A stretch of 64,000 nt of DNA, taken from the NCBI GenBank assembly GCA_026129905.1, contig JAHCHE010000018.1:62001-126000 (forward strand). The letters are read 5' to 3'. The stretch comes from Bryobacteraceae bacterium. GTDB lineage: Bacteria; Acidobacteriota; Terriglobia; Bryobacterales; Bryobacteraceae. A program made the position numbers and the translations under genes. Under the pieces are notes generated by a model. It ran no database searches, was not told the DNA's origin, and saw nothing but the letters and a program-made list of their open reading frames with translations. Positions 51,825-64,000 of this stretch are shown piece by piece; position 1 is the first letter of the stretch; each line of letters begins with the position of its first letter.

Positions 51825-53486
51825 ATGCGATCCCTTGCCCTGGCGCTTGTCACGGCGTCGCTGTGCGCGCAACCGCGGTTCGAAGTCACCTTCGATTCGA
51901 AAGCCCGAGTGGCTCCGGCGGACGGCCGGCTGATCGTGGTGGTCTCGAAACAGCTCGAAGGCGAACCGCGGTTTCAGGTGACCTGGGGCCTCGGGACGCA
52001 GCAGATCTTCGGGACCGACGTGGACGGCTGGAAGCCGGGCGAGGTCGCAACGGTCGACGCCGCCGCCGCCGGCGACCCTCTCCGCAGCCTCCGCGATCTT
52101 CCGCCGGGCGAGTACAACATCCAGGCGGCGCTGAACGTCTACGAGACCTTTCATCGCCGCGATGGCCACGTCGTCAAGCTCCACATGGACCAGGGTGAGG
52201 GTCAGAGGTGGAACCGCTCGCCGGGCAACCTCCTCAGCAAGCCGCGGCGCGTCGCTATCACGGCCGACTCGGTAGTCTCCATCGAGCTGACCGAGGCGAT
52301 TCCGCCGATCGAGCCTCCGAAGGACACCAAATTCCTCCGCTCCGTGAGCATCGAGAGCAAGCTCCTCAGCCGGTTCTGGGGCCGCCCCATGCGGCTAGGC
52401 GCCATCGTGCTGGTTCCCGAAGGGTTCGACGAAAACCCGGAGCGGCGCTATCCCGTCGCATTCTGGCAGGACCATTTCTCCGCGGAGTTCTCGATGTTCC
52501 GGGAAACGCCGCCCTCCGCGGAATCGAAAGGCGGCGGCCGGAGATGGGCCGCCTTGCAATACCGGTTTTATCAGGATTGGATCTCCGGCGAACTGCCAAA
52601 AATGCTGCTGGTAATTACCCAGCACGCTACGCCGTACTACGACGACTCCTACGGCGTCAACAGCGCCAACATGGGACCTTATGGAGACGCCTTGACCCAG
52701 GAGTTGTATCCCGAGATCGAACGCCGCTTCCGCGCCATCGGCCAGCCCTGGGCGCGCGTGCTGTTCGGCGGCTCCACCGGCGGCTGGATGTCGCTCGCCC
52801 AGCAGATCTTTTATCCCGACTATTTCGGCGGCGCCTGGGGCTTCTGTCCCGACCCGGTGGACTTCCACGCGTTTCAGACCATCGACGTCTATCGCGATTC
52901 CAACGCCTACTTCGATGAAGGGCCGTTCGCGCGGCTGCCCAAGCTGCTCGGGCGGCAGGCGAACGACCGCGTCCTTGCGACGATGGAGAGCTTCAGCCGG
53001 CAGGAAGCCGCGCTCGGCTCGCGCGCACGGTCCGGCGGACAGCTCGACGCCTTCCACGCCGTCTTCGGACCCGCGGCTTCCGACGGCTACCCCGCCAGGC
53101 TCTGGGATCCGGAGACCGGGGCGATTGACGCCGCTGTCGCCAAATACTGGCGCCAGCATTACGACCTGGCGGCGCTGCTCGCGCGCGATTGGCGCCGGCT
53201 CGGCCCGAAGTTGGTCGCCAAGCTGCACGTTACCATGGGCACGAAGGACACCTTCTACCTGGACGCCGCGGCGCGCCGCATGGAACGATTCCTCGAAAGC
53301 ACGAAATTTCCCGACAAGGGGCCGTATTATGGCGGGCAATTCGTGTTCGGCAATAACGAGCCTCACTGTTATCTCGGCGACATTCCATCCGGCGTGCCGA
53401 TTTTAACGTACTATTTGCCGATATTCGCCGAGCACATGGCTTCTCTGGCCCCGCCTGGCGCCGACGTGAAGAGCTGGAGGCCCTGA
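51825..53486 (+). CDS. Secreted alpha/beta-hydrolase (putative esterase family)
   Basis: 553 residues with a signal peptide (LALALVTASLCAQ). Residues about 1-190 are a beta-rich N-terminal domain. The alpha/beta-hydrolase core carries the nucleophile Ser in FGGSTGGWMS, and the His is probably that in GNNEPHCYLG. Similar to PF00756 esterases that act on carbohydrate esters. It lies 58 bases after the dehydratase gene. Confidence 0.8.
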   Translation: MRSLALALVTASLCAQPRFEVTFDSKARVAPADGRLIVVVSKQLEGEPRFQVTWGLGTQQIFGTDVDGWKPGEVATVDAAAAGDPLRSLRDLPPGEYNIQAALNVYETFHRRDGHVVKLHMDQGEGQRWNRSPGNLLSKPRRVAITADSVVSIELTEAIPPIEPPKDTKFLRSVSIESKLLSRFWGRPMRLGAIVLVPEGFDENPERRYPVAFWQDHFSAEFSMFRETPPSAESKGGGRRWAALQYRFYQDWISGELPKMLLVITQHATPYYDDSYGVNSANMGPYGDALTQELYPEIERRFRAIGQPWARVLFGGSTGGWMSLAQQIFYPDYFGGAWGFCPDPVDFHAFQTIDVYRDSNAYFDEGPFARLPKLLGRQANDRVLATMESFSRQEAALGSRARSGGQLDAFHAVFGPAASDGYPARLWDPETGAIDAAVAKYWRQHYDLAALLARDWRRLGPKLVAKLHVTMGTKDTFYLDAAARRMERFLESTKFPDKGPYYGGQFVFGNNEPHCYLGDIPSGVPILTYYLPIFAEHMASLAPPGADVKSWRP

Positions 53487-53495
53487 ACCCCGTCT

Positions 53496-54590
53496 TTACG
53501 CCGGATGGCGCGGCGCGACGCCCGCTTCGAGCGGAACAAGCCCCGCCGCTCCTGCATCGGAACCGCCGGACATCCGCTTCAACTGGCCGCAGGCGGCGTA
53601 GATGTCGAGCCCCCGAGGCTTCCGGACAAAACACGGAAAGCTCCGCCGGAGGACCTGTTGGAACGCATGAACCCGCTCCGGCTCGGGCGTCTCGAACAGT
53701 ATGCCGGGACCGGGGTTCAGCGCGATCAGGTTCACTTTGCAGTTCAGGCGCGCCAGCAACCGCGCTACCCGGCGGGCGTCGGCGTCGCTGTCGTTGACTC
53801 CCCTGAGCAGCACGTATTCGAACGTCAGCTTTTCCCACGGGCGCAACGGATAAGCGCGGCACGCCTCCAGCAAATCGGACAGGCGATACTTCCGCGTCAC
53901 CGGCATCAACTGTCGGCGCTGTTCCTCCGTTGACGCGTTCAGCGAAACGGCGAGTTTCGGACGCGTCGGCGCGCGGCCGAGTTCCTCAATCCGGGGCACA
54001 ATGCCGCTGGTGGACAGCGTCATCCGGCGCTGCGAGACGCCGACGCCCGCGGGATCCGCCAGCAAGCGCGTGGCTTTCAGTACATTTGGCAGGTTCAGGA
54101 GCGGTTCGCCCTGTCCCATCGTGACGATGTTCAGCTTCGCGCTCTCCGGGTCGAGACGCTGATCGAGTGCGGCGAAAAGAACCTGGCCCACGATCTCTCC
54201 GGTCGTCAGGTTGCGCTCCAGACCCATCAGCGCCGTAAGGCAGAATTTGCAGTCGACAGCGCATCCCACCTGCGTCGAGATGCAGATCGTGTAACGGCCG
54301 TCCTCGGGCATCACTACGGTCTCTACCATCAGACCGTCTTGAAGCCGGAGGAGATAGCGTATCGTTCCGTCGGCCGAGTCGTAGCGCTGTTGCAGTTCCG
54401 GCAGGCCGACGGATGCGGTCTCGGCGAGGCGCCGCCGCAGGTCGCGCGGGATGTTGGTGATTCCGGCAAGCGACGGGACCCGGCGGCGGTACACCGCCTC
54501 ATAGATCTGCCGGGCGCGGTACGCCGGCTCGTCCGGGCCCAGAACGGCCGCGATGTCGGCCAGTTCCATGCCGATCAGCGAAGGGCCCAT
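53496..54590 (-). CDS. rlmN: 23S rRNA / tRNA (adenine-C2) methyltransferase RlmN
   Basis: 364 residues, radical SAM methyltransferase. The cluster motif is CAVDCKFC after TQVG; SAM-binding GQGEP (usual form MGMGEP); the C-terminal Cys in DIYAACGQL is the methylated Cys of the mechanism. Methylates A2503 of 23S rRNA and A37 of some tRNAs. GGGAG precedes the ATG. Ends nine bases from the convergent esterase gene. Confidence 0.95.
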
Positions 54591-54686
54591 CTCCCGGTAT
54601 TTTACGGCTGCGGCCGGGCCCCCCGCCGTGAACCTGTCAAACAGCCCGCCCGGCGCATTTTCGAGATCCGCGACGCCGCGCCGAAT

Positions 54687-56417
54687 TCACTCCCCCCGCC
54701 TCCCTATGGTTTGGGAGGACGAGTCGCTGGTACCCCAGACGACGGCCGTGCCCCAGACGACGGCGAAACCTTGATTCGTACTCGTGCCCCAAATCACGGC
54801 TGTGCCCCACACCACGGCCGAGTCGTTCACGATGACGTTCGAGCCCCAGACGACGGCGGTGCTCCAAACCGAGCCCGCATCCCATGCTCCGCCGGGAGCG
54901 CCGTGGATGGTCGTCAGTCCTGTGGTCTCGTCGTAGGCAGCCGTGGGAGACAACGCCGGGCCCGACGCCAATTCCGTGTCGTTCAGCGCCGCCCAAATGT
55001 CCAGGTAACCGGCCCCCACCGTGAACAGGTCATAGGTGACCTGATACGTGGCGCCGGTGAGCGCATCCGTGCCCACGCTGGTCGAGGGCAGGTTCGTGGT
55101 GGCCGTCCGCATTAAACGGGCTTTCACCTGATCCGGCGTAAGCTCGGGGTTCTTTTGCAGCAGCAGCGCGGCGGCCCCGGAGACCATCGGGGCGGCCATG
55201 CTTGTGCCGCTTAGCCGCATGTAGGACGTCCCTTTCACTATCGAATAACTCGCTTTGTAGTAGGAAATCGGGACCACGTTTTCCGGGTACCAGAAGCGGA
55301 GGAAAGAGTTCGGCGCAAGCGCCGAGGCGATTCGGTTACCTGGCGCCACCAGGTCCGGTTTAACGACGTGGTCGAGCAGCGTCGGACCTTTGGAGCTGTA
55401 ACTCGCCATCAAGTCATCGGGCCGCTCTTTCGTGTCCATATTCTTCATGGCGCCGACGGTGATGACGTACGGACTGTTGCCGGGCGAGGCGATGGTCGCG
55501 TAGCCGCTGGTCCCGCGCGAGTTGTCCCGGCCGTTGTTGCCGGCAGCCACAACAACTACCAGGCCGGCTTCCCACGCTCGCGCCACCCCCTGGCACAGCG
55601 GGTCCAGGCCGTAGCTTTCCTGAATCGAGCGGCCCAACGACAGGTTGATGACCCGGATGTTGTATTTCTCTTTCAGCTCGATCGCCCGGTCGATGGCTGC
55701 CAGGACGGACGAATCCGTTCCTCGTCCTTTCGCATCCAGGACGCGCAAGTTGATGAGGTGGACCTTCGGCGCAATTCCGAGGAATGTGATGGCATAGTTG
55801 GAGCCTGTGGAAGCGGCGCCATTCCCGCCGGCGATCCCTGCCACATGGGTCCCATGGCCGTACAGATCGTCCGTCCGGGGGTCGCCGGGAATGAAGCTTT
55901 CCGCGTAGACGACGCGCGTCCGCAGATCGGGGTGGTCGGAGGCGATCCCGCTATCGATGATGGCTATGCCGACCCCGTTGCCGGTCCAGCCGTACTGCAG
56001 CGCCACATCGGCGCCAACCGACGGTTGCGCGAACTCCATGTGGCCCGCGACGCTTCGGTCCGGCGAGATGTAGTGGATGGCCGGATCCCTTGCGAGATCC
56101 TTGAGCGCGCCCGCCGACAACCTCACCAGGCCGGCCGGGACGTTCTTGTACTTCTTCTTGAGCTTGCCGCCCCGCGCCGTAACCTTCCCGACATCGGCCT
56201 GTGTCGGCGCCGAATGGAACTGCACGATCGCGTCGACAGTCGCCGCCGGGGCCAGTTGTTCAAGGTCGCGGCTCAGCGGGCCCGCCGTCAATGCGCGCGA
56301 GAGCAGTCCCAGCGCCAATGCTGTTTTCAGCCATGTCGGCAACCCTCTTCGTGGCGCCGGCCGGCAGGGAAAGGATCGAAGCGTGTCTGTCCAGTGTCTG
56401 TCGTTGGTATCATGCAT
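54687..56417 (-). CDS. Subtilisin-like S8 serine protease with Val-Trp-Gly C-terminal repeats (copy 1)
   Basis: 576 residues. A hydrophobic signal (WLKTALALGLLSRALTAG) precedes an inhibitor-I9-like prodomain. Catalytic triad: Asp in IAIIDSGIAS, His in GHGTHVAG, Ser in GTSMAAPMVSG. The last ~60 residues contain VWG-type repeats (AVVWGTAVIWGT). Probably secreted or bound to the cell surface. The second copy lies directly upstream on the same strand, 33 bases away. Confidence 0.92.
   Translation of the reverse strand: MHDTNDRHWTDTLRSFPCRPAPRRGLPTWLKTALALGLLSRALTAGPLSRDLEQLAPAATVDAIVQFHSAPTQADVGKVTARGGKLKKKYKNVPAGLVRLSAGALKDLARDPAIHYISPDRSVAGHMEFAQPSVGADVALQYGWTGNGVGIAIIDSGIASDHPDLRTRVVYAESFIPGDPRTDDLYGHGTHVAGIAGGNGAASTGSNYAITFLGIAPKVHLINLRVLDAKGRGTDSSVLAAIDRAIELKEKYNIRVINLSLGRSIQESYGLDPLCQGVARAWEAGLVVVVAAGNNGRDNSRGTSGYATIASPGNSPYVITVGAMKNMDTKERPDDLMASYSSKGPTLLDHVVKPDLVAPGNRIASALAPNSFLRFWYPENVVPISYYKASYSIVKGTSYMRLSGTSMAAPMVSGAAALLLQKNPELTPDQVKARLMRTATTNLPSTSVGTDALTGATYQVTYDLFTVGAGYLDIWAALNDTELASGPALSPTAAYDETTGLTTIHGAPGGAWDAGSVWSTAVVWGSNVIVNDSAVVWGTAVIWGTSTNQGFAVVWGTAVVWGTSDSSSQTIGRRGE
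54726..54872 (-). repeat. Val-Trp-Gly repeat region of subtilase copy 1
   Basis: About six units of the form A-V-(V/I)-W-G-(T/S), with a variable insert between some of them. Shorter than the matching region of copy 2. Confidence 0.75.
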
Positions 56418-56450
56418 AAGGCTTGCCTATCTTGGGTCAGGTTTTTGCCA

Positions 56451-58181
56451 TCAGTTCTCCCCGTTGACGAGTTGGTTCAAGCTCTCCATTGAGGCACTGT
56501 TTCCCGTACCCCAAATAGCCGCGGTACCCCAGACTGCCGCGTTGCCCGTTACGCCCGCGGTGCCCCAAACCGCCGCGCTCCCCCACACCGCGCTGGTGCC
56601 CCAAACGGCCGCCGCACCCTCGACGAACGCGCTGGAACCCCAGACCGCCGCGGAGCCCCAGACCGCCGCCGTACCCCACAGCGCGGCTTTCCCCCAGATC
56701 GAGGTATTGGCGTTGACCACCCGTACTTTGTTCGTGCCCGCGTCGAAAACTGCGATGGGCGATGCCGCCGTGCTTCCCGCCGGTACAACGTCCAGGGTGT
56801 TGAGAGCGGCCCAGACGTCCAGATATCCGGCGCCAACCGTGAAGATGTCGTATTGGCTGACATATTGCCTGTTCGTGACCGGGTCGACAGCCGTGCTGTA
56901 CATCGGGAAGATCTTCGTGGCTGTCTTCATCAGCCGCGCCTTGACGGTTTCAGGCGTCAACGCCGGGTCTTTGTGCAGCATCAAGGCGACGGCGCCGCTG
57001 ACCATGGGCGCCGCCATGCTCGTGCCGCTCAGCCGATAGTAGTCGGCCGAATAGCTCTTGCTGGAAGTGGATTGGTAGTACGAGTAGAGAATCTTGTTGG
57101 CCGTGGAGTTCGTCGCGATCAGGCTTTTTGACGCGGCAAGCGACACGATCCGGTTCCCTGGCCCCACCAGGTCGGGCTTGACCACGTGATCGATCAAGGT
57201 CGGCCCCTTGGAACTGTAACTGGCGATGCGATCGTCGGCGCGCGACGGCGTGCCCATGTGTTTCATGGCCCCCACGGTGATCGCCAGGGGGTCGTTCGCC
57301 GGAGAGGTGATGGTTGCGTAGCCGTCGGTTCCCAGGGACTGATTTCGACCTTCGTTTCCCGCCGCCACCACGACGACGATTCCCGCCTTCCAGGCGCGCT
57401 CCACCGCCTGGCAGAGCGGATCCTTGGTATAGCCCTCAAACACGGGCCGCCCCAAGGAAATGTTAATGACGCGAATGTTGTAGGTGTTTTTTATCTTAAT
57501 GGCGTGGTCGATCGCGCTGATGACGTTGCTATCGGTCCCCACGCCGTTGGCATCGAGCACCCGCAGGTTGATCAGCCTGGCATGGGCGGCGATGCCGCGG
57601 AACGTCTTGAAGTACCCCGTACCGGTGGAAGCGGCGCCGTTGCCCGCGATGATGCCGGCGACGTGCGTCCCATGGCCATGCTGGTCGGTCGTGCTCGTGA
57701 CCTTCGGAACAAAGCTCTTGCTGTAGACCACGCGCGAGGTGTTGGGTGCGTTCGCGATAGCCAGATCCTTGGGCGGAAGGACTCCGCTGTCGATGATTGC
57801 AACCCCAATGCCGGAGCCGTCCCAACCATATTGCAGCGCGAGAGGAACGCCCACCGTCGGAATGGAGTAGTCCAACGTGGGCCCGATCTCCCGGTCCGGG
57901 GAGATGTAGACGACCTCGGGGTCGGCGGCGAGATCGTCCAGCGTGTCCGACGACACGGCGTATGCCGCCGATTGGATCAGGCCAAGTTCGGTCTTGAGAC
58001 GGCCGCCGCGCTGCTGGATCTTGGCGTGCTGCTTGCTGGCGGGAGACGAGGCAAACTGGACGATCACGTCGACCGTGGATCCGGGTTTCGAAGCCTTCAG
58101 GTCTCGGGCCAGCTTCGGCGAACCGGCCCAACACGTGACTGGGATTATCAAAAGCGCGAATTTTCCTATTGATGCTCGCAT
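56451..58181 (-). CDS. Subtilisin-like S8 serine protease with Val-Trp-Gly C-terminal repeats (copy 2)
   Basis: 576 residues from the ATG at 58181; a GTG at 58214 is an alternative start. Signal peptide (IGKFALLIIPVTCWAG), prodomain, then the triad Asp in VAIIDSGVLP, His in GHGTHVAG and Ser in GTSMAAPMVSG. The C-terminus has about ten or more W-G repeats (AAVWGSAAVWGS). It shares its layout and much sequence with copy 1, so a tandem duplication is likely. Substrate unknown. Confidence 0.92.
   Translation of the reverse strand: MRASIGKFALLIIPVTCWAGSPKLARDLKASKPGSTVDVIVQFASSPASKQHAKIQQRGGRLKTELGLIQSAAYAVSSDTLDDLAADPEVVYISPDREIGPTLDYSIPTVGVPLALQYGWDGSGIGVAIIDSGVLPPKDLAIANAPNTSRVVYSKSFVPKVTSTTDQHGHGTHVAGIIAGNGAASTGTGYFKTFRGIAAHARLINLRVLDANGVGTDSNVISAIDHAIKIKNTYNIRVINISLGRPVFEGYTKDPLCQAVERAWKAGIVVVVAAGNEGRNQSLGTDGYATITSPANDPLAITVGAMKHMGTPSRADDRIASYSSKGPTLIDHVVKPDLVGPGNRIVSLAASKSLIATNSTANKILYSYYQSTSSKSYSADYYRLSGTSMAAPMVSGAVALMLHKDPALTPETVKARLMKTATKIFPMYSTAVDPVTNRQYVSQYDIFTVGAGYLDVWAALNTLDVVPAGSTAASPIAVFDAGTNKVRVVNANTSIWGKAALWGTAAVWGSAAVWGSSAFVEGAAAVWGTSAVWGSAAVWGTAGVTGNAAVWGTAAIWGTGNSASMESLNQLVNGEN
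56505..56702 (-). repeat. Val-Trp-Gly repeat region of subtilase copy 2
   Basis: Six-residue units (A-A-V-W-G-T/S) repeated about ten to twelve times, with Trp every sixth position. Repetitive at the DNA level too. Confidence 0.85.
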
Positions 58182-58284
58182 TTTGCTCACTATTTCTTGT
58201 CCGGCTCGCCGCACAATCGACGGCCGCTTCGTCTAGTGACCGTGAACGGGAAAGACCTCACGAACGCCGTGAAAGGTCCAAAGT

Positions 58285-58310
58285 CAGGTCGGACTGGGCG
58301 GACCGACCTG
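58285..58310. repeat. Inverted repeat, 8-bp arms
   Basis: CAGGTCGG and CCGACCTG flank a ten-base loop. Lies upstream of subtilase copy 2; could be an operator or a terminator. Confidence 0.65.
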
Positions 58311-58314
58311 AAGT

Positions 58315-58329
58315 ACTAGACGTACTAGT
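58315..58329. repeat. Inverted repeat ACTAG-N5-CTAGT
   Basis: Five-base arms with a five-base spacer, four bases after the previous inverted repeat. CTAG is rare in most bacteria, so a protein-binding site is possible. Confidence 0.5.
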
Positions 58330-58615
58330 ATGGTAGCGGAACAACACCTCAGGGTCCAGAACTCTTGTGGGGGCGCCGAGCCGGCGCAAGCGCGGGGATC
58401 GGACAGGCGGCTCGTTAATGACTCGCCGGTGGCCTTGGCGGTCTGCGTCCCCTCAAGACCCACCGCGTCGCCGCGCGGCGACGAGCGCGGAACGACCTTT
58501 CGACCCAGACTTCCCGTCGTTGCGCCGTCCGGAGCGCGTGTGCTAGTGTAACGGACTTGGGACCCCTTTCTAAGGTTTCCTAATTGTTCATTCTTAACCG
58601 GTTTCCGGTATCCAG

Positions 58616-59065
58616 ATGGATGCGGTTCTAAATCAGTTGGGCGGGCTCATGCTCCGAGCCTTGCCGACGTTCATCCTCCTCGTCATCCTGCACTTCTATC
58701 TCAAATGGGCCTTTTACGGACCCATGGACCGCCTCCTCTACCGCCGCTGGGAGGCGACCGAAGGTGCGCGGAAGGCGGCCAAGGACGCGTTGGCGGCCGC
58801 CGACGCCAGGAGCGCCGCCTACCAGGAAGCGATTCGAAACGCGCGCGGCGAAGTCTTCGCCGAACACGAACGGATCCGCCGTGAGTGGCAGCGCCGGCAG
58901 GCCGCGGCCATCGAAGAAACGCGCCGAAAGAGCGAATCCGCGATCCGCGAAGCGAAAGACGCGCTGGCTGCGGAAGCTTCCGCCGGCAGGCTGACGCTTG
59001 CAGCTCGGAGCGAAGCGCTCGCCGAAGAGATCGCTGCCGCGCTGCTCCGCAGGAGGGCCAGTTGA
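58616..59065 (+). CDS. atpF': ATP synthase subunit b' (F0)
   Basis: 149 residues. One N-terminal helix (RALPTFILLVILHFYLKW) and a long charged helix typical of subunit b/b' stalks. Placed before a second b-type gene and overlapping it by four bases. Part of the peripheral stalk linking F0 to F1. A weak ribosome site precedes the ATG. Confidence 0.85.
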   Translation: MDAVLNQLGGLMLRALPTFILLVILHFYLKWAFYGPMDRLLYRRWEATEGARKAAKDALAAADARSAAYQEAIRNARGEVFAEHERIRREWQRRQAAAIEETRRKSESAIREAKDALAAEASAGRLTLAARSEALAEEIAAALLRRRAS

Positions 59066-59673
59066 AGGTCAGGCCGGTGGTCTTGCTTATTGCCCTGCTC
59101 CTGGCGCTCGCCGGCTTCGCCAGGGCGCAGGCGGTGGCCGAAGGCGCGCCCGAGCCGGCCCACGGAAGCGCCGAAGAAGAACACCACGACAGCAGCACGT
59201 TCTGGAAGACCGTCAATTTCGCCATCCTGGCCGCCGCCATCGGGTACGGAATGGCCAAGTTCGGCGGTGCGTTCTTCCGGTCTCGAACGGCCGAAATCCA
59301 GAGCGGCATCGCCGAAGCCACCAGGCTGCGGCAGGAAGCCGAGGCGCGGGCCGCCGATATGGAGCGCCGCATGGCAAACCTGAGCGCCGAAGTGGAGGAA
59401 CTCCGGCGCGCCGCGCGCGAGGAACTCGAGGCCGAGGAGCGCCGGTTCGCGGCTGAGACCGAACAACTGGTCGTCCGGATGCAAGCCAACGCCGAGCAGG
59501 AGATCGCGTCCGCCGCCAATCAGGCCCGCAAGGAACTGCGAGCGTACTCGGCCGAGTTGGCTCTCGAGCTTGCCCGCCGCAAGATCCAAAGCCGCATGAC
59601 CCCGGAACTGGCCGACGATCTCGTCGACGCGTTCGTTCGCGACCTGGACCGCCTTCCTCAAAGAGTCAAGTAG
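59062..59673 (+). CDS. atpF: ATP synthase subunit b (F0)
   Basis: 203 residues from a TTG with AGGAGG five bases before it. A hydrophobic leader (VVLLIALLLALAGFARAQ) like a signal peptide precedes the usual single helix (TVNFAILAAAIGYGMAKFGG) and the long coiled-coil stalk. The extra leader is typical of b subunits in Acidobacteriota. Together with b' it probably forms a heterodimeric stalk. Confidence 0.9.
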   Translation: MKVRPVVLLIALLLALAGFARAQAVAEGAPEPAHGSAEEEHHDSSTFWKTVNFAILAAAIGYGMAKFGGAFFRSRTAEIQSGIAEATRLRQEAEARAADMERRMANLSAEVEELRRAAREELEAEERRFAAETEQLVVRMQANAEQEIASAANQARKELRAYSAELALELARRKIQSRMTPELADDLVDAFVRDLDRLPQRVK

Positions 59674-59676
59674 AAG

Positions 59677-60222
59677 ATGTCGCTCGCCATTGCAAACCGG
59701 TATGCGCACGCTCTGGCCGACGTCGTGCTCGATCCATCGTCCGGAATCGACGCGCGGCGCTCCGCCGGCCAGCTCCGGTCCGTGGAGGCGCTGGTGAAGG
59801 AGTCGCCGGACCTTCGCGCCGTGCTGATGAACCCCGCCGTGACCCCGCCGCGGAAACGCGCGGTCGTCTCGCGCCTGGTCGAGCCGCTGGCGTTGCCGCC
59901 GGCCTTGCGCAATTTCCTGTTCGTCCTTATCGACCGGCGGCGGATCGGACTGCTGGACGAGATCCGCCAGGCGTTCGAGAACGTGCTCGATCAGCGGCTC
60001 GGCGTCGTGCGGGCGGACATCGCTTCCGCCAAGGACCTCGATGCCGGCCAGCGCGCGATGCTGACCGAAAAGCTGGCCATGCTCACCGGCAGCCAGGTCC
60101 GGCCCGAATACGCGGTCGACCCGTCGCTGTTGGGCGGCGCCGTGGTGCGCATCGGTTCCACCATCTACGATGGCTCGCTGCGCGGGCAGATGGAGGCGTT
60201 GCGCAAGCGTTTGACGGAATAG
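59677..60222 (+). CDS. atpH: ATP synthase subunit delta (F1)
   Basis: 181 residues, OSCP/delta family: ANRYAHALADVVLD at the N-terminus, ALRNFLFVLIDRRRIGLLDEI in the middle and the C-terminal DPSLLGGAVVRIGSTIYDGSLRGQ are all conserved. Joins the stalk to the alpha3beta3 head. It starts three bases after atpF. Confidence 0.95.
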   Translation: MSLAIANRYAHALADVVLDPSSGIDARRSAGQLRSVEALVKESPDLRAVLMNPAVTPPRKRAVVSRLVEPLALPPALRNFLFVLIDRRRIGLLDEIRQAFENVLDQRLGVVRADIASAKDLDAGQRAMLTEKLAMLTGSQVRPEYAVDPSLLGGAVVRIGSTIYDGSLRGQMEALRKRLTE

Positions 60223-60291
60223 AACCCCGCCGCCGTTCGGACGGAGCGTTCGGCGCCGTCGAGCCGCGTTTTTGCGAAGCAGGTATTTACT

Positions 60292-61815
<1,524 letters not shown>

Positions 61816-61830
61816 CCAAGGACCCGAGCC

Positions 61831-62718
61831 ATGCCCAGCCTGATCGACATCCGCAGGCGCATCCGGTCGGTGCGCAATACGCAGCAGATCACCAAGGCCA
61901 TGAAGATGGTCTCCACCGCGCGGCTGCGGCGGGCGCAGGAGCGGGTGGTCGCGGCGCGCCCCTACGCGCGCATCCTGCGGGAAATGGTGGCCAACGTCGC
62001 CGCCGCCGTGGCCGCCGCCGGTACGGCGGGAGGGACGGAAGCGCCGGACGATCAGCCGTTGCATCCGCTGCTGGCGGCTCGCCCGGAGCAGCGCGTCCTG
62101 CTCCTGTTCTTCACGGCCGACCGAGGGCTCGCCGGCGCGTTCAACTCGAATCTCATCAAGGCCGCCCAGCGATTTCTGGTGGAAAACGCCGCGCGAACCG
62201 TGGAATTGGAATTGATCGGGCGTAAAGCCAGGGACTTTTTCCGGAAACGTCCCGTCCGCGTGGCCGGCGAGCAGATCGGGCTGGGAAACAAGGCCCTCTA
62301 CGAAGACATCGCGCCGGTGATCGACAAAGTGATCGACCGCTATCGGAAACAGGAGATCGACGCCGTTTATCTCCTGTACAACGAGTTCAAGAGCGTCCTG
62401 TCGCAAAAGCTGACCGTGGTTCGCATCCTGCCGATCGAACTCCCGGCGGTCGCGGCCGAACGCGAGTACATCTACGAGCAGCCGCCGGAGGAACTGCTCC
62501 GATTGCTCCTGCCGCGCTATGTCGGTATCGCCGTTCACCACGCGCTGCTCGAATCGACAGCGGCCGAGCACGCGGCCCGCATGACGGCCATGGACGCGGC
62601 CACCACCAACGCCGGCGAATTGATCGAAAAATTGACGCTTTACATGAACCGCGTGCGGCAGGCCAGCATCACGCGCGAAATCATCGAAGTAGTCAGCGGC
62701 GCGGCCGCGCTCGACTAG
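61831..62718 (+). CDS. atpG: ATP synthase subunit gamma (F1)
   Basis: 295 residues: N-terminal helix IDIRRRIRSVRNTQQITKAMKMVSTARL and the C-terminal MTAMDAATTNAGELIEKLTLYMNRVRQASITREIIEVVSGA are both conserved. Rotating shaft in the head. The region after residue 60 holds an Ala-rich insertion (ANVAAAVAAAGTAGG). Confidence 0.96.
   Translation: MPSLIDIRRRIRSVRNTQQITKAMKMVSTARLRRAQERVVAARPYARILREMVANVAAAVAAAGTAGGTEAPDDQPLHPLLAARPEQRVLLLFFTADRGLAGAFNSNLIKAAQRFLVENAARTVELELIGRKARDFFRKRPVRVAGEQIGLGNKALYEDIAPVIDKVIDRYRKQEIDAVYLLYNEFKSVLSQKLTVVRILPIELPAVAAEREYIYEQPPEELLRLLLPRYVGIAVHHALLESTAAEHAARMTAMDAATTNAGELIEKLTLYMNRVRQASITREIIEVVSGAAALD

Positions 62719-64000
<1,282 letters not shown>

Follow-up and report, generated by a model that had tools for sequence, protein, structure and literature searches.

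The locus studied here encodes two adjacent proteases of family S8 whose C-terminal tails carry a tryptophan every six residues, and it raises the question of what such a tail is and what it does for the enzyme to which it is joined. The genes lie in a stretch of 64,000 nucleotides (hereafter the window) from a Bryobacteraceae bacterium of the phylum Acidobacteriota (GenBank assembly GCA_026129905.1, contig JAHCHE010000018.1, positions 62,001 to 126,000), and their products are called P0001 and P0002. We propose, with a probability of roughly 45%, that the tail is a hexapeptide-repeat β-solenoid in which tryptophan replaces the aliphatic core residue, and that it would act as an extracellular stalk positioning an exported protease. 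The proposal draws on the repeat itself, on a two-step link to aliphatic hexapeptide tails, on the association of these arrays with S8 hosts in the samples checked, and on the purifying selection acting on the tail.

The protease pair and its repeat

An earlier note on this DNA described two neighbouring S8 proteases of shared layout at positions 54,687 to 58,181, and the open reading frames, together with a PF00082 match in both proteins, bear out the description and its coordinates. Both genes are on the minus strand, P0001 lying 33 bp downstream of P0002, with the following features.

56451..58214, minus strand: P0002, S8 subtilase with an 11-hexad tail, read from GTG, with a possible in-frame ATG at 58181 (open reading frame and translation)
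58122..58181, minus strand: P0002, likely Sec signal peptide MRASIGKFALLIIPVTCWAG (by inspection of the sequence)
56913..57818, minus strand: P0002, catalytic S8 domain, residues 133-434 (Pfam PF00082; the AlphaFold model resembles pro-subtilisins, best 3afg)
56715..56756, minus strand: P0002, putative linker hairpin into the tail, model strands 456-460 and 465-469 (AlphaFold, weakly supported: mean predicted local distance difference test, pLDDT, of 64 and 56 in ten-residue blocks)
56454..56702, minus strand: P0002, tryptophan-hexapeptide tail, residues 505-587, with nine W-G hexads, two degenerate ones and an NGEN terminus
56454..56465, minus strand: P0002, C-terminal NGEN (a G-[ED] close to the end recurs in the family)
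54687..56417, minus strand: P0001, S8 subtilase of 576 residues with a shorter tail (open reading frame and translation)
56283..56336, minus strand: P0001, likely signal peptide core TWLKTALALGLLSRALTA (by inspection of the sequence)
55092..55982, minus strand: P0001, catalytic S8 domain, residues 146-442 (Pfam PF00082)
54690..54890, minus strand: P0001, tryptophan-hexapeptide tail, residues 510-576, with six W[GS] hexads, one GAWD hexad, degenerate units and an RGE terminus

To judge from their sequences, P0001 and P0002 are S8 subtilases with intact catalytic motifs. Their PF00082 scores (202.5 and 169.6 bits, respectively) exceed the curated cut-off of 21.8, and the catalytic residues Asp142, His181 and Ser399 and the oxyanion residue Asn287 (P0002 numbering) are invariant across nine paralogues of this genome. 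The propeptide region of both proteins gives a match to Inhibitor_I9 below the cut-off, and each has a hydrophobic N-terminus that, on inspection, reads as a Sec signal.

The tails are built of units in which tryptophan is followed by glycine or serine (W[GS]). In P0001 six such units begin at residues 518, 524, 537, 543, 555 and 561, and a seventh tryptophan, within GAWD, stands six residues ahead of the first. In P0002 nine begin at residues 507, 513, 519, 525, 538, 544, 550, 562 and 568, and the degenerate hexads AFVEGA and AGVTGN bring the total to eleven. Accordingly the figure of about six units given earlier is right for P0001, and that of ten to twelve for the other protein stands when degenerate hexads are counted and falls to nine with W[GS] alone. 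Successive tryptophans are six residues apart, except for one gap of 13 and one of 12 per protein; when the last 90 residues were shuffled, the observed number of tryptophan pairs six apart was reached in 0 of 20,000 trials for P0002 and in 3 of 20,000 for P0001.

The same unit is found in the relatives of these proteins, taken as the best 80 of at least 562 confirmed stretches from a scan of public genomes. In 468 hexads from the proteins of 60 of them the consensus is [VAI]-[VLI]-W-[GS]-[SDTEN]-[SNT]; counting tryptophan, which occupies position i by construction of the count, as the origin, Val, Ala or Ile stands at i-2, Val, Leu or Ile at i-1, Gly at i+1 (87%), Ser, Asp, Thr, Glu or Asn at i+2 and Ser, Asn or Thr at i+3. 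The spacing 6, 6, 13, 6, 12, 6 is common to P0001, L003, L005, L019, L023 and L040. Gly followed by Glu or Asp occurs among the last five residues of 50 of 68 tailed proteins, and this recurring motif may serve as a cap or as a signal for recognition.

In the tail DNA 18-bp tandem repeats can be recognised, and the paralogue L007 has DNA units that are almost identical. The ratio of nonsynonymous to synonymous substitution (dN/dS) in the tail is 0.097 for P0002 against its paralogue L002 and 0.111 for P0001 against L005, with 0.086 and 0.101 in the respective catalytic domains, and the synonymous sites are much changed in both pairs. The tail is under purifying selection comparable to that on the catalytic domain, and is not a neutral expansion.

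Relation to aliphatic hexapeptide tails

The left-handed β-helix (LbH) is built of hexads of the pattern [LIV]-[GAED]-x-x-[STAV]-x, and the tail consensus appears to fit this pattern at every position except i, where the window tails have tryptophan instead of an aliphatic Leu, Ile or Val. The aliphatic residue is present only in sister tails: S8 proteases related to the window pair carry hexads such as GVLISD, GVILGD and GIVVAS at the same tail position. One of these aliphatic tails, L078, matches the Pfam Hexapep family PF00132 with 30.1 bits, above the cut-off of 27, and L077, L081 and L096 match it below the cut-off.

Profile comparison with hhalign joins these tail kinds through an intermediate set. 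Tails of the window clade (A6, 10 rows) match the sister clade's tryptophan tails (A3, the five chosen rows L087, L070, L076, L092 and L094) with a probability of 95.9 and an expect value (E) of 5.7e-9, over the repeats only. A3 in turn matches the aliphatic tails (A5, five chosen rows) with a probability of 94.8 and an E of 4.9e-8, with tryptophan placed over the aliphatic position and with a non-repetitive junction around W-x-[QE], shared by both sets, included in the match; tryptophan is aligned over aliphatic residues also in a de novo alignment. Furthermore, L080 combines a junction of the aliphatic type with two tryptophan hexads before its contig ends, and in the tree it is a neighbour of the aliphatic clade.

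The catalytic domains are consistent with a single switch between the tail kinds. An unrooted tree of 84 domains, of which 78 bear a tail label and 6 do not, needs one change between tryptophan and aliphatic tails, at a branch with a Shimodaira-Hasegawa approximate likelihood ratio of 91 (quick method), and none of 500 label shuffles gave as low a number; five rows (L064, L079, L089, L090 and L095), two of them aliphatic-tailed, were excluded automatically ahead of tree building.

Replacement of tryptophan by isoleucine in silico causes Hexapep to be listed for five of five tails, against none of the same five unmodified. L007, a paralogue in this genome (41.3 bits), and L092 (33.9 bits) then exceed the cut-off of 27, and L087 (23.5), P0002 (18.8) and P0001 (15.1) stay below it. 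Permuted hexads served as the control, because a reversed hexad keeps the same pattern, and none of the ten permuted sequences lists Hexapep. The term hexapeptide-like, used in the earlier note, is thus apt both for the period of six and for the link, through sister proteases, to tails that Hexapep recognises, even though direct profile comparison fails.

Hosts, paralogues and distribution

In the samples checked, the arrays were found on S8 proteases wherever the host could be read. A DNA pattern matched in 41 of 199 genomes of the phylum, part of the matches being due to chance; among 30 loci examined (L113 and L115-L143), 11 were judged by eye to be real hexad arrays and 19 were unrelated frames. 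Nine of the real arrays are in frames with S8 motifs and two are cut by contig ends. A second scan covered 12 of the pattern-positive genomes, and in 18 array regions chosen from nine of them all 21 array genes are S8 proteases, 19 recognised by motif and two (L179 and L185) by Pfam; in L188, which is among the 21, the frame is interrupted within the tail. In other genomes of the phylum, S8 proteases carry arrays as long as about 40 hexads (L183), and about 32 in L172.

In the 8.57 Mb assembly there are nine close family members, namely the window pair on C10, a pair on C22, three on C6 and one each on C36 and C11, and all nine are tailed. A Pfam search places S8 domains at 13 sites altogether. 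The S8 frames at the non-family loci on C36, C71 and C12 show no tryptophans six apart, and at the C28 locus, where the S8 frame itself was not located by motif, the surrounding 8 kb hold no array and one WG pair in a presumed chance frame. A scan of the genome DNA for three consecutive WG hexads gave 18 matches, 17 of them within seven of the nine tailed genes and the last in an unrelated frame at the end of contig C25; P0001 and L005 are absent because too few of their units are consecutive. Each member of the C10 pair has its counterpart in the C22 pair (L002 for P0002 and L005 for P0001, both starred at 100 in the tree), and therefore the pair was either duplicated as a unit or descends from a common tandem ancestor.

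Tandem tailed copies are the only recurring neighbours noticed near the paralogues, and a second tailed frame is present at 4 of the 80 relative loci. An explanation from gene neighbours was rejected, since the ten genes chosen for inspection around the paralogues on C6, C22, C36 and C11 are of differing kinds. Immediately downstream of the paralogue L003 (L015:6952-9357) there is an S8 protease of another kind, which has a PA domain but lacks a tryptophan array.

The 80 relatives, whose ranking used a tail-containing query and so favours tailed proteins, are mostly labelled as Acidobacteriota or its subgroups; the other labels are Pseudomonadota (L071, L074, L075, L082 and L083), Acidimicrobiia (L041) and simply 'bacterium' (L073). 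The frame is closed in 74 and cut by a contig end in six. The closed frames comprise 64 tryptophan-tailed, seven aliphatic-tailed and three unclassified proteins. The tryptophan class follows a loose rule, which admits L069, having no six-residue spacing at all, and L071, L072, L074 and L086, with few or no sixes and spacings mainly of 10 to 19. In the unclassified L057 the tail lies just downstream in another frame, in L095 the frame is broken inside the domain, and in L028 a stop follows directly after the domain, near a contig end; with the exception of L028, this set, whose ranking favours tailed proteins, shows no relative that has its complete C-terminus and lacks a tail. In the gammaproteobacterial L071, L074, L075, L082 and L083 the hexad takes a variant form with acidic loops (GYLWSDG, NLWADG). 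L041, labelled Acidimicrobiia (Actinomycetota), groups within the acidobacterial tailed proteases, through either transfer or mis-binning.

The family is distributed patchily, and in multiple copies, among close relatives. At an E of 1e-60, 9 of 41 genomes, counting the bacterium's own, are positive; each has between one and nine matches, part of which are fragments from broken assemblies. A plasmid search matched 544 records, every one below 60% identity; among the five matches listed, four are annotated as S8 and one has no feature.

As to the surroundings in the window, a promoter and terminator scan of positions 53300-59600 gave counts near chance. An open frame of 1486 codons (58819-63279, minus strand) runs antisense to apparent ATP synthase genes (58885-62718, plus strand) and is probably spurious in this GC-rich DNA.

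Weighing the proposed β-solenoid

The proteases would probably be exported by the Sec route and would mature through loss of the N-terminal propeptide. The mature enzyme would keep the tail, a rigid stalk outside the cell that may position it through self-association or by attaching it to envelope or matrix.

Several results weigh against this proposal. AlphaFold, run on P0002 with 41 relatives, gives a mostly good catalytic part and a tail pLDDT of about 24, and the regular tryptophan tail of L087, modelled together with four relatives, reaches a mean pLDDT of 40 and a predicted template modelling score of 0.33; the latter model has, at low confidence, a strand per hexad across most of the array, and its Foldseek search returned four PDB matches, none significant. 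The solenoid claim therefore leans on the sequence and not on the models. No sign of three hexads per turn was found, since hexad similarity is 0.806, 0.815 and 0.754 at lags 1 to 3 with no peak at lag 3, and a rule of hexads in threes fails on P0002, with 11, and L018, with 10. Judged by approximate side-chain volumes, a standard LbH would be overpacked by three tryptophans pointing inward on each rung; such a turn would probably misfit the normal helix, and therefore a wider or shifted coil is possible. Many relatives have spacings other than that of P0001.

The link to Hexapep has its own difficulties. Unmodified P0001 and P0002, whole or as tails alone, have no Hexapep match in Pfam, and no unmodified tryptophan tail scanned exceeds the cut-off, one of 42 family members being listed at an E of 0.17. 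The permuted controls produced misleading Pfam matches, one to Collagen (35.6 bits against a cut-off of 27.2) and one, weak, to LbH_EIF2B (12.1 bits). As A6 and A3 match on repeats alone, convergence is possible. Direct comparison of A6 with A5 gives no match (probability 0.2, E 0.32), A3 forming the bridge, so that the window tails are related to Hexapep by an argument in two steps. Because both a profile match and an aliphatic core are lacking in the window tails, we do not claim Hexapep or LbH membership for them; such tails may nevertheless work like an LbH.

A more specific version is possible but distinctly doubtful. Each hexad of a tryptophan-built β-solenoid would contribute one tryptophan to stacked ladders, either in the interior of a widened coil or along its faces, a single evolutionary switch would separate it from the ordinary aliphatic helix of the same protease family, and the tail would represent a solenoid class not described before and, in Acidobacteriota, a widespread module for attaching enzymes outside the cell. 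The window tails match no model of Pfam or NCBIfam above cut-off, and no description of such tails was found among the titles and abstract openings listed in searches of the open-access literature. The ordered aromatic stack suggested by the earlier note is plausible in itself, but both AlphaFold models have low confidence in the tail. If the tail is a tryptophan hexapeptide β-helix, the tryptophan, intermediate and aliphatic forms, with about six to forty repeats, would be a natural series showing how the core of a β-solenoid accommodates its largest residue, and an unmodelled domain would be named on a multi-copy protease family of Acidobacteriota, a phylum whose extracellular enzymes are poorly known.

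Alternative explanations

An unlikely alternative, although the best placed of the four, is a cleaved C-terminal signal for sorting or outer-membrane translocation, whose repeat and terminal G-[ED]-x would be read by an export machine and then removed. The C-terminal location of the tail, the G[ED] in 50 of 68 tailed proteins, the strong conservation and the multi-copy family all agree with such a signal. Sorting signals usually serve many types of cargo, however, and the readable hosts in the samples checked are S8 proteases only; arrays of up to about 40 hexads would also be unusual. No sorting family of Pfam or NCBIfam is matched, and this search, which covered the window proteins and ten relatives and gave no anchoring family either, agrees with the earlier note, which saw no known secretion or anchoring signal in such tails.

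Somewhat less probable again is a C-terminal propeptide, an intramolecular chaperone serving folding or inhibition and later cut off. The conserved linker that joins the tail to the catalytic domain and a selection like that on this domain would suit it, but 6 to 40 repeat units are not the usual form of a chaperone, and an N-terminal propeptide is already suggested by the Inhibitor_I9 match below cut-off and by the resemblance of the model to pro-subtilisins.

We consider it improbable that the tail forms amyloid-like cross-β fibrils by which the protease would be clustered in a matrix. The repeats are short, hydrophobic and aromatic, and most of the array in the weak L087 model has one strand to each hexad, which would suit such an assembly; the PDB also contains Vpr, another S8 peptidase, in a fibril form (8jmw). 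Yet the sequence match to Vpr spans residues 103-316 of P0002, in the catalytic part and not the tail, irregular gaps of 13 and 12 residues recur in several relatives, and an aliphatic sister tail matches Hexapep.

Equally improbable is a disordered low-complexity expansion by replication slippage with no specific role, for which the very low AlphaFold confidence in the tail, the 18-bp DNA repeats and the near-identical units of L007 would speak, but against which stand the dN/dS of about 0.1 in two paralogue pairs with much-changed synonymous sites, the spacing kept in several relatives and the link to a structural repeat recognised by Pfam.

Comparison with known systems

The S8 subtilase Tk-SP (3afg, 9ues), which has an accessory C-terminal domain, gives the best sequence and structure matches and shares the propeptide and the S8 domain with the window proteins; its C-terminal domain is a jelly-roll, unlike a hexapeptide array. 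The best NCBIfam match of the protease domain is to the mycosins of type VII secretion systems (TIGR03921, 165.1 and 139.9 bits), but both proteins fall below the cut-off of 278.75 and no C-terminal membrane helix was seen on inspection. In one relative from Pyrinomonadaceae (L088:3692-6694) an Ice_binding domain (PF11999, DUF3494) lies in the aliphatic hexapeptide tail region; this β-solenoid is a different domain, and it has no match in the window proteins.

The remaining comparison is with the Hexapep repeats of PF00132, the LbH class of LpxA, LpxD, GlmU and γ-carbonic anhydrase. The window tails differ in having tryptophan at position i, no confident fold and no match of the unmodified sequence to the model, and in being carried by an apparently secreted protease, whereas the LbH is found on cytoplasmic acyltransferases. 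They resemble it in the period of six residues, in glycine at i+1, in polar residues at i+2 and i+3 and in a small or β-branched residue at i+4, and the sister tail L078 matches the family directly.

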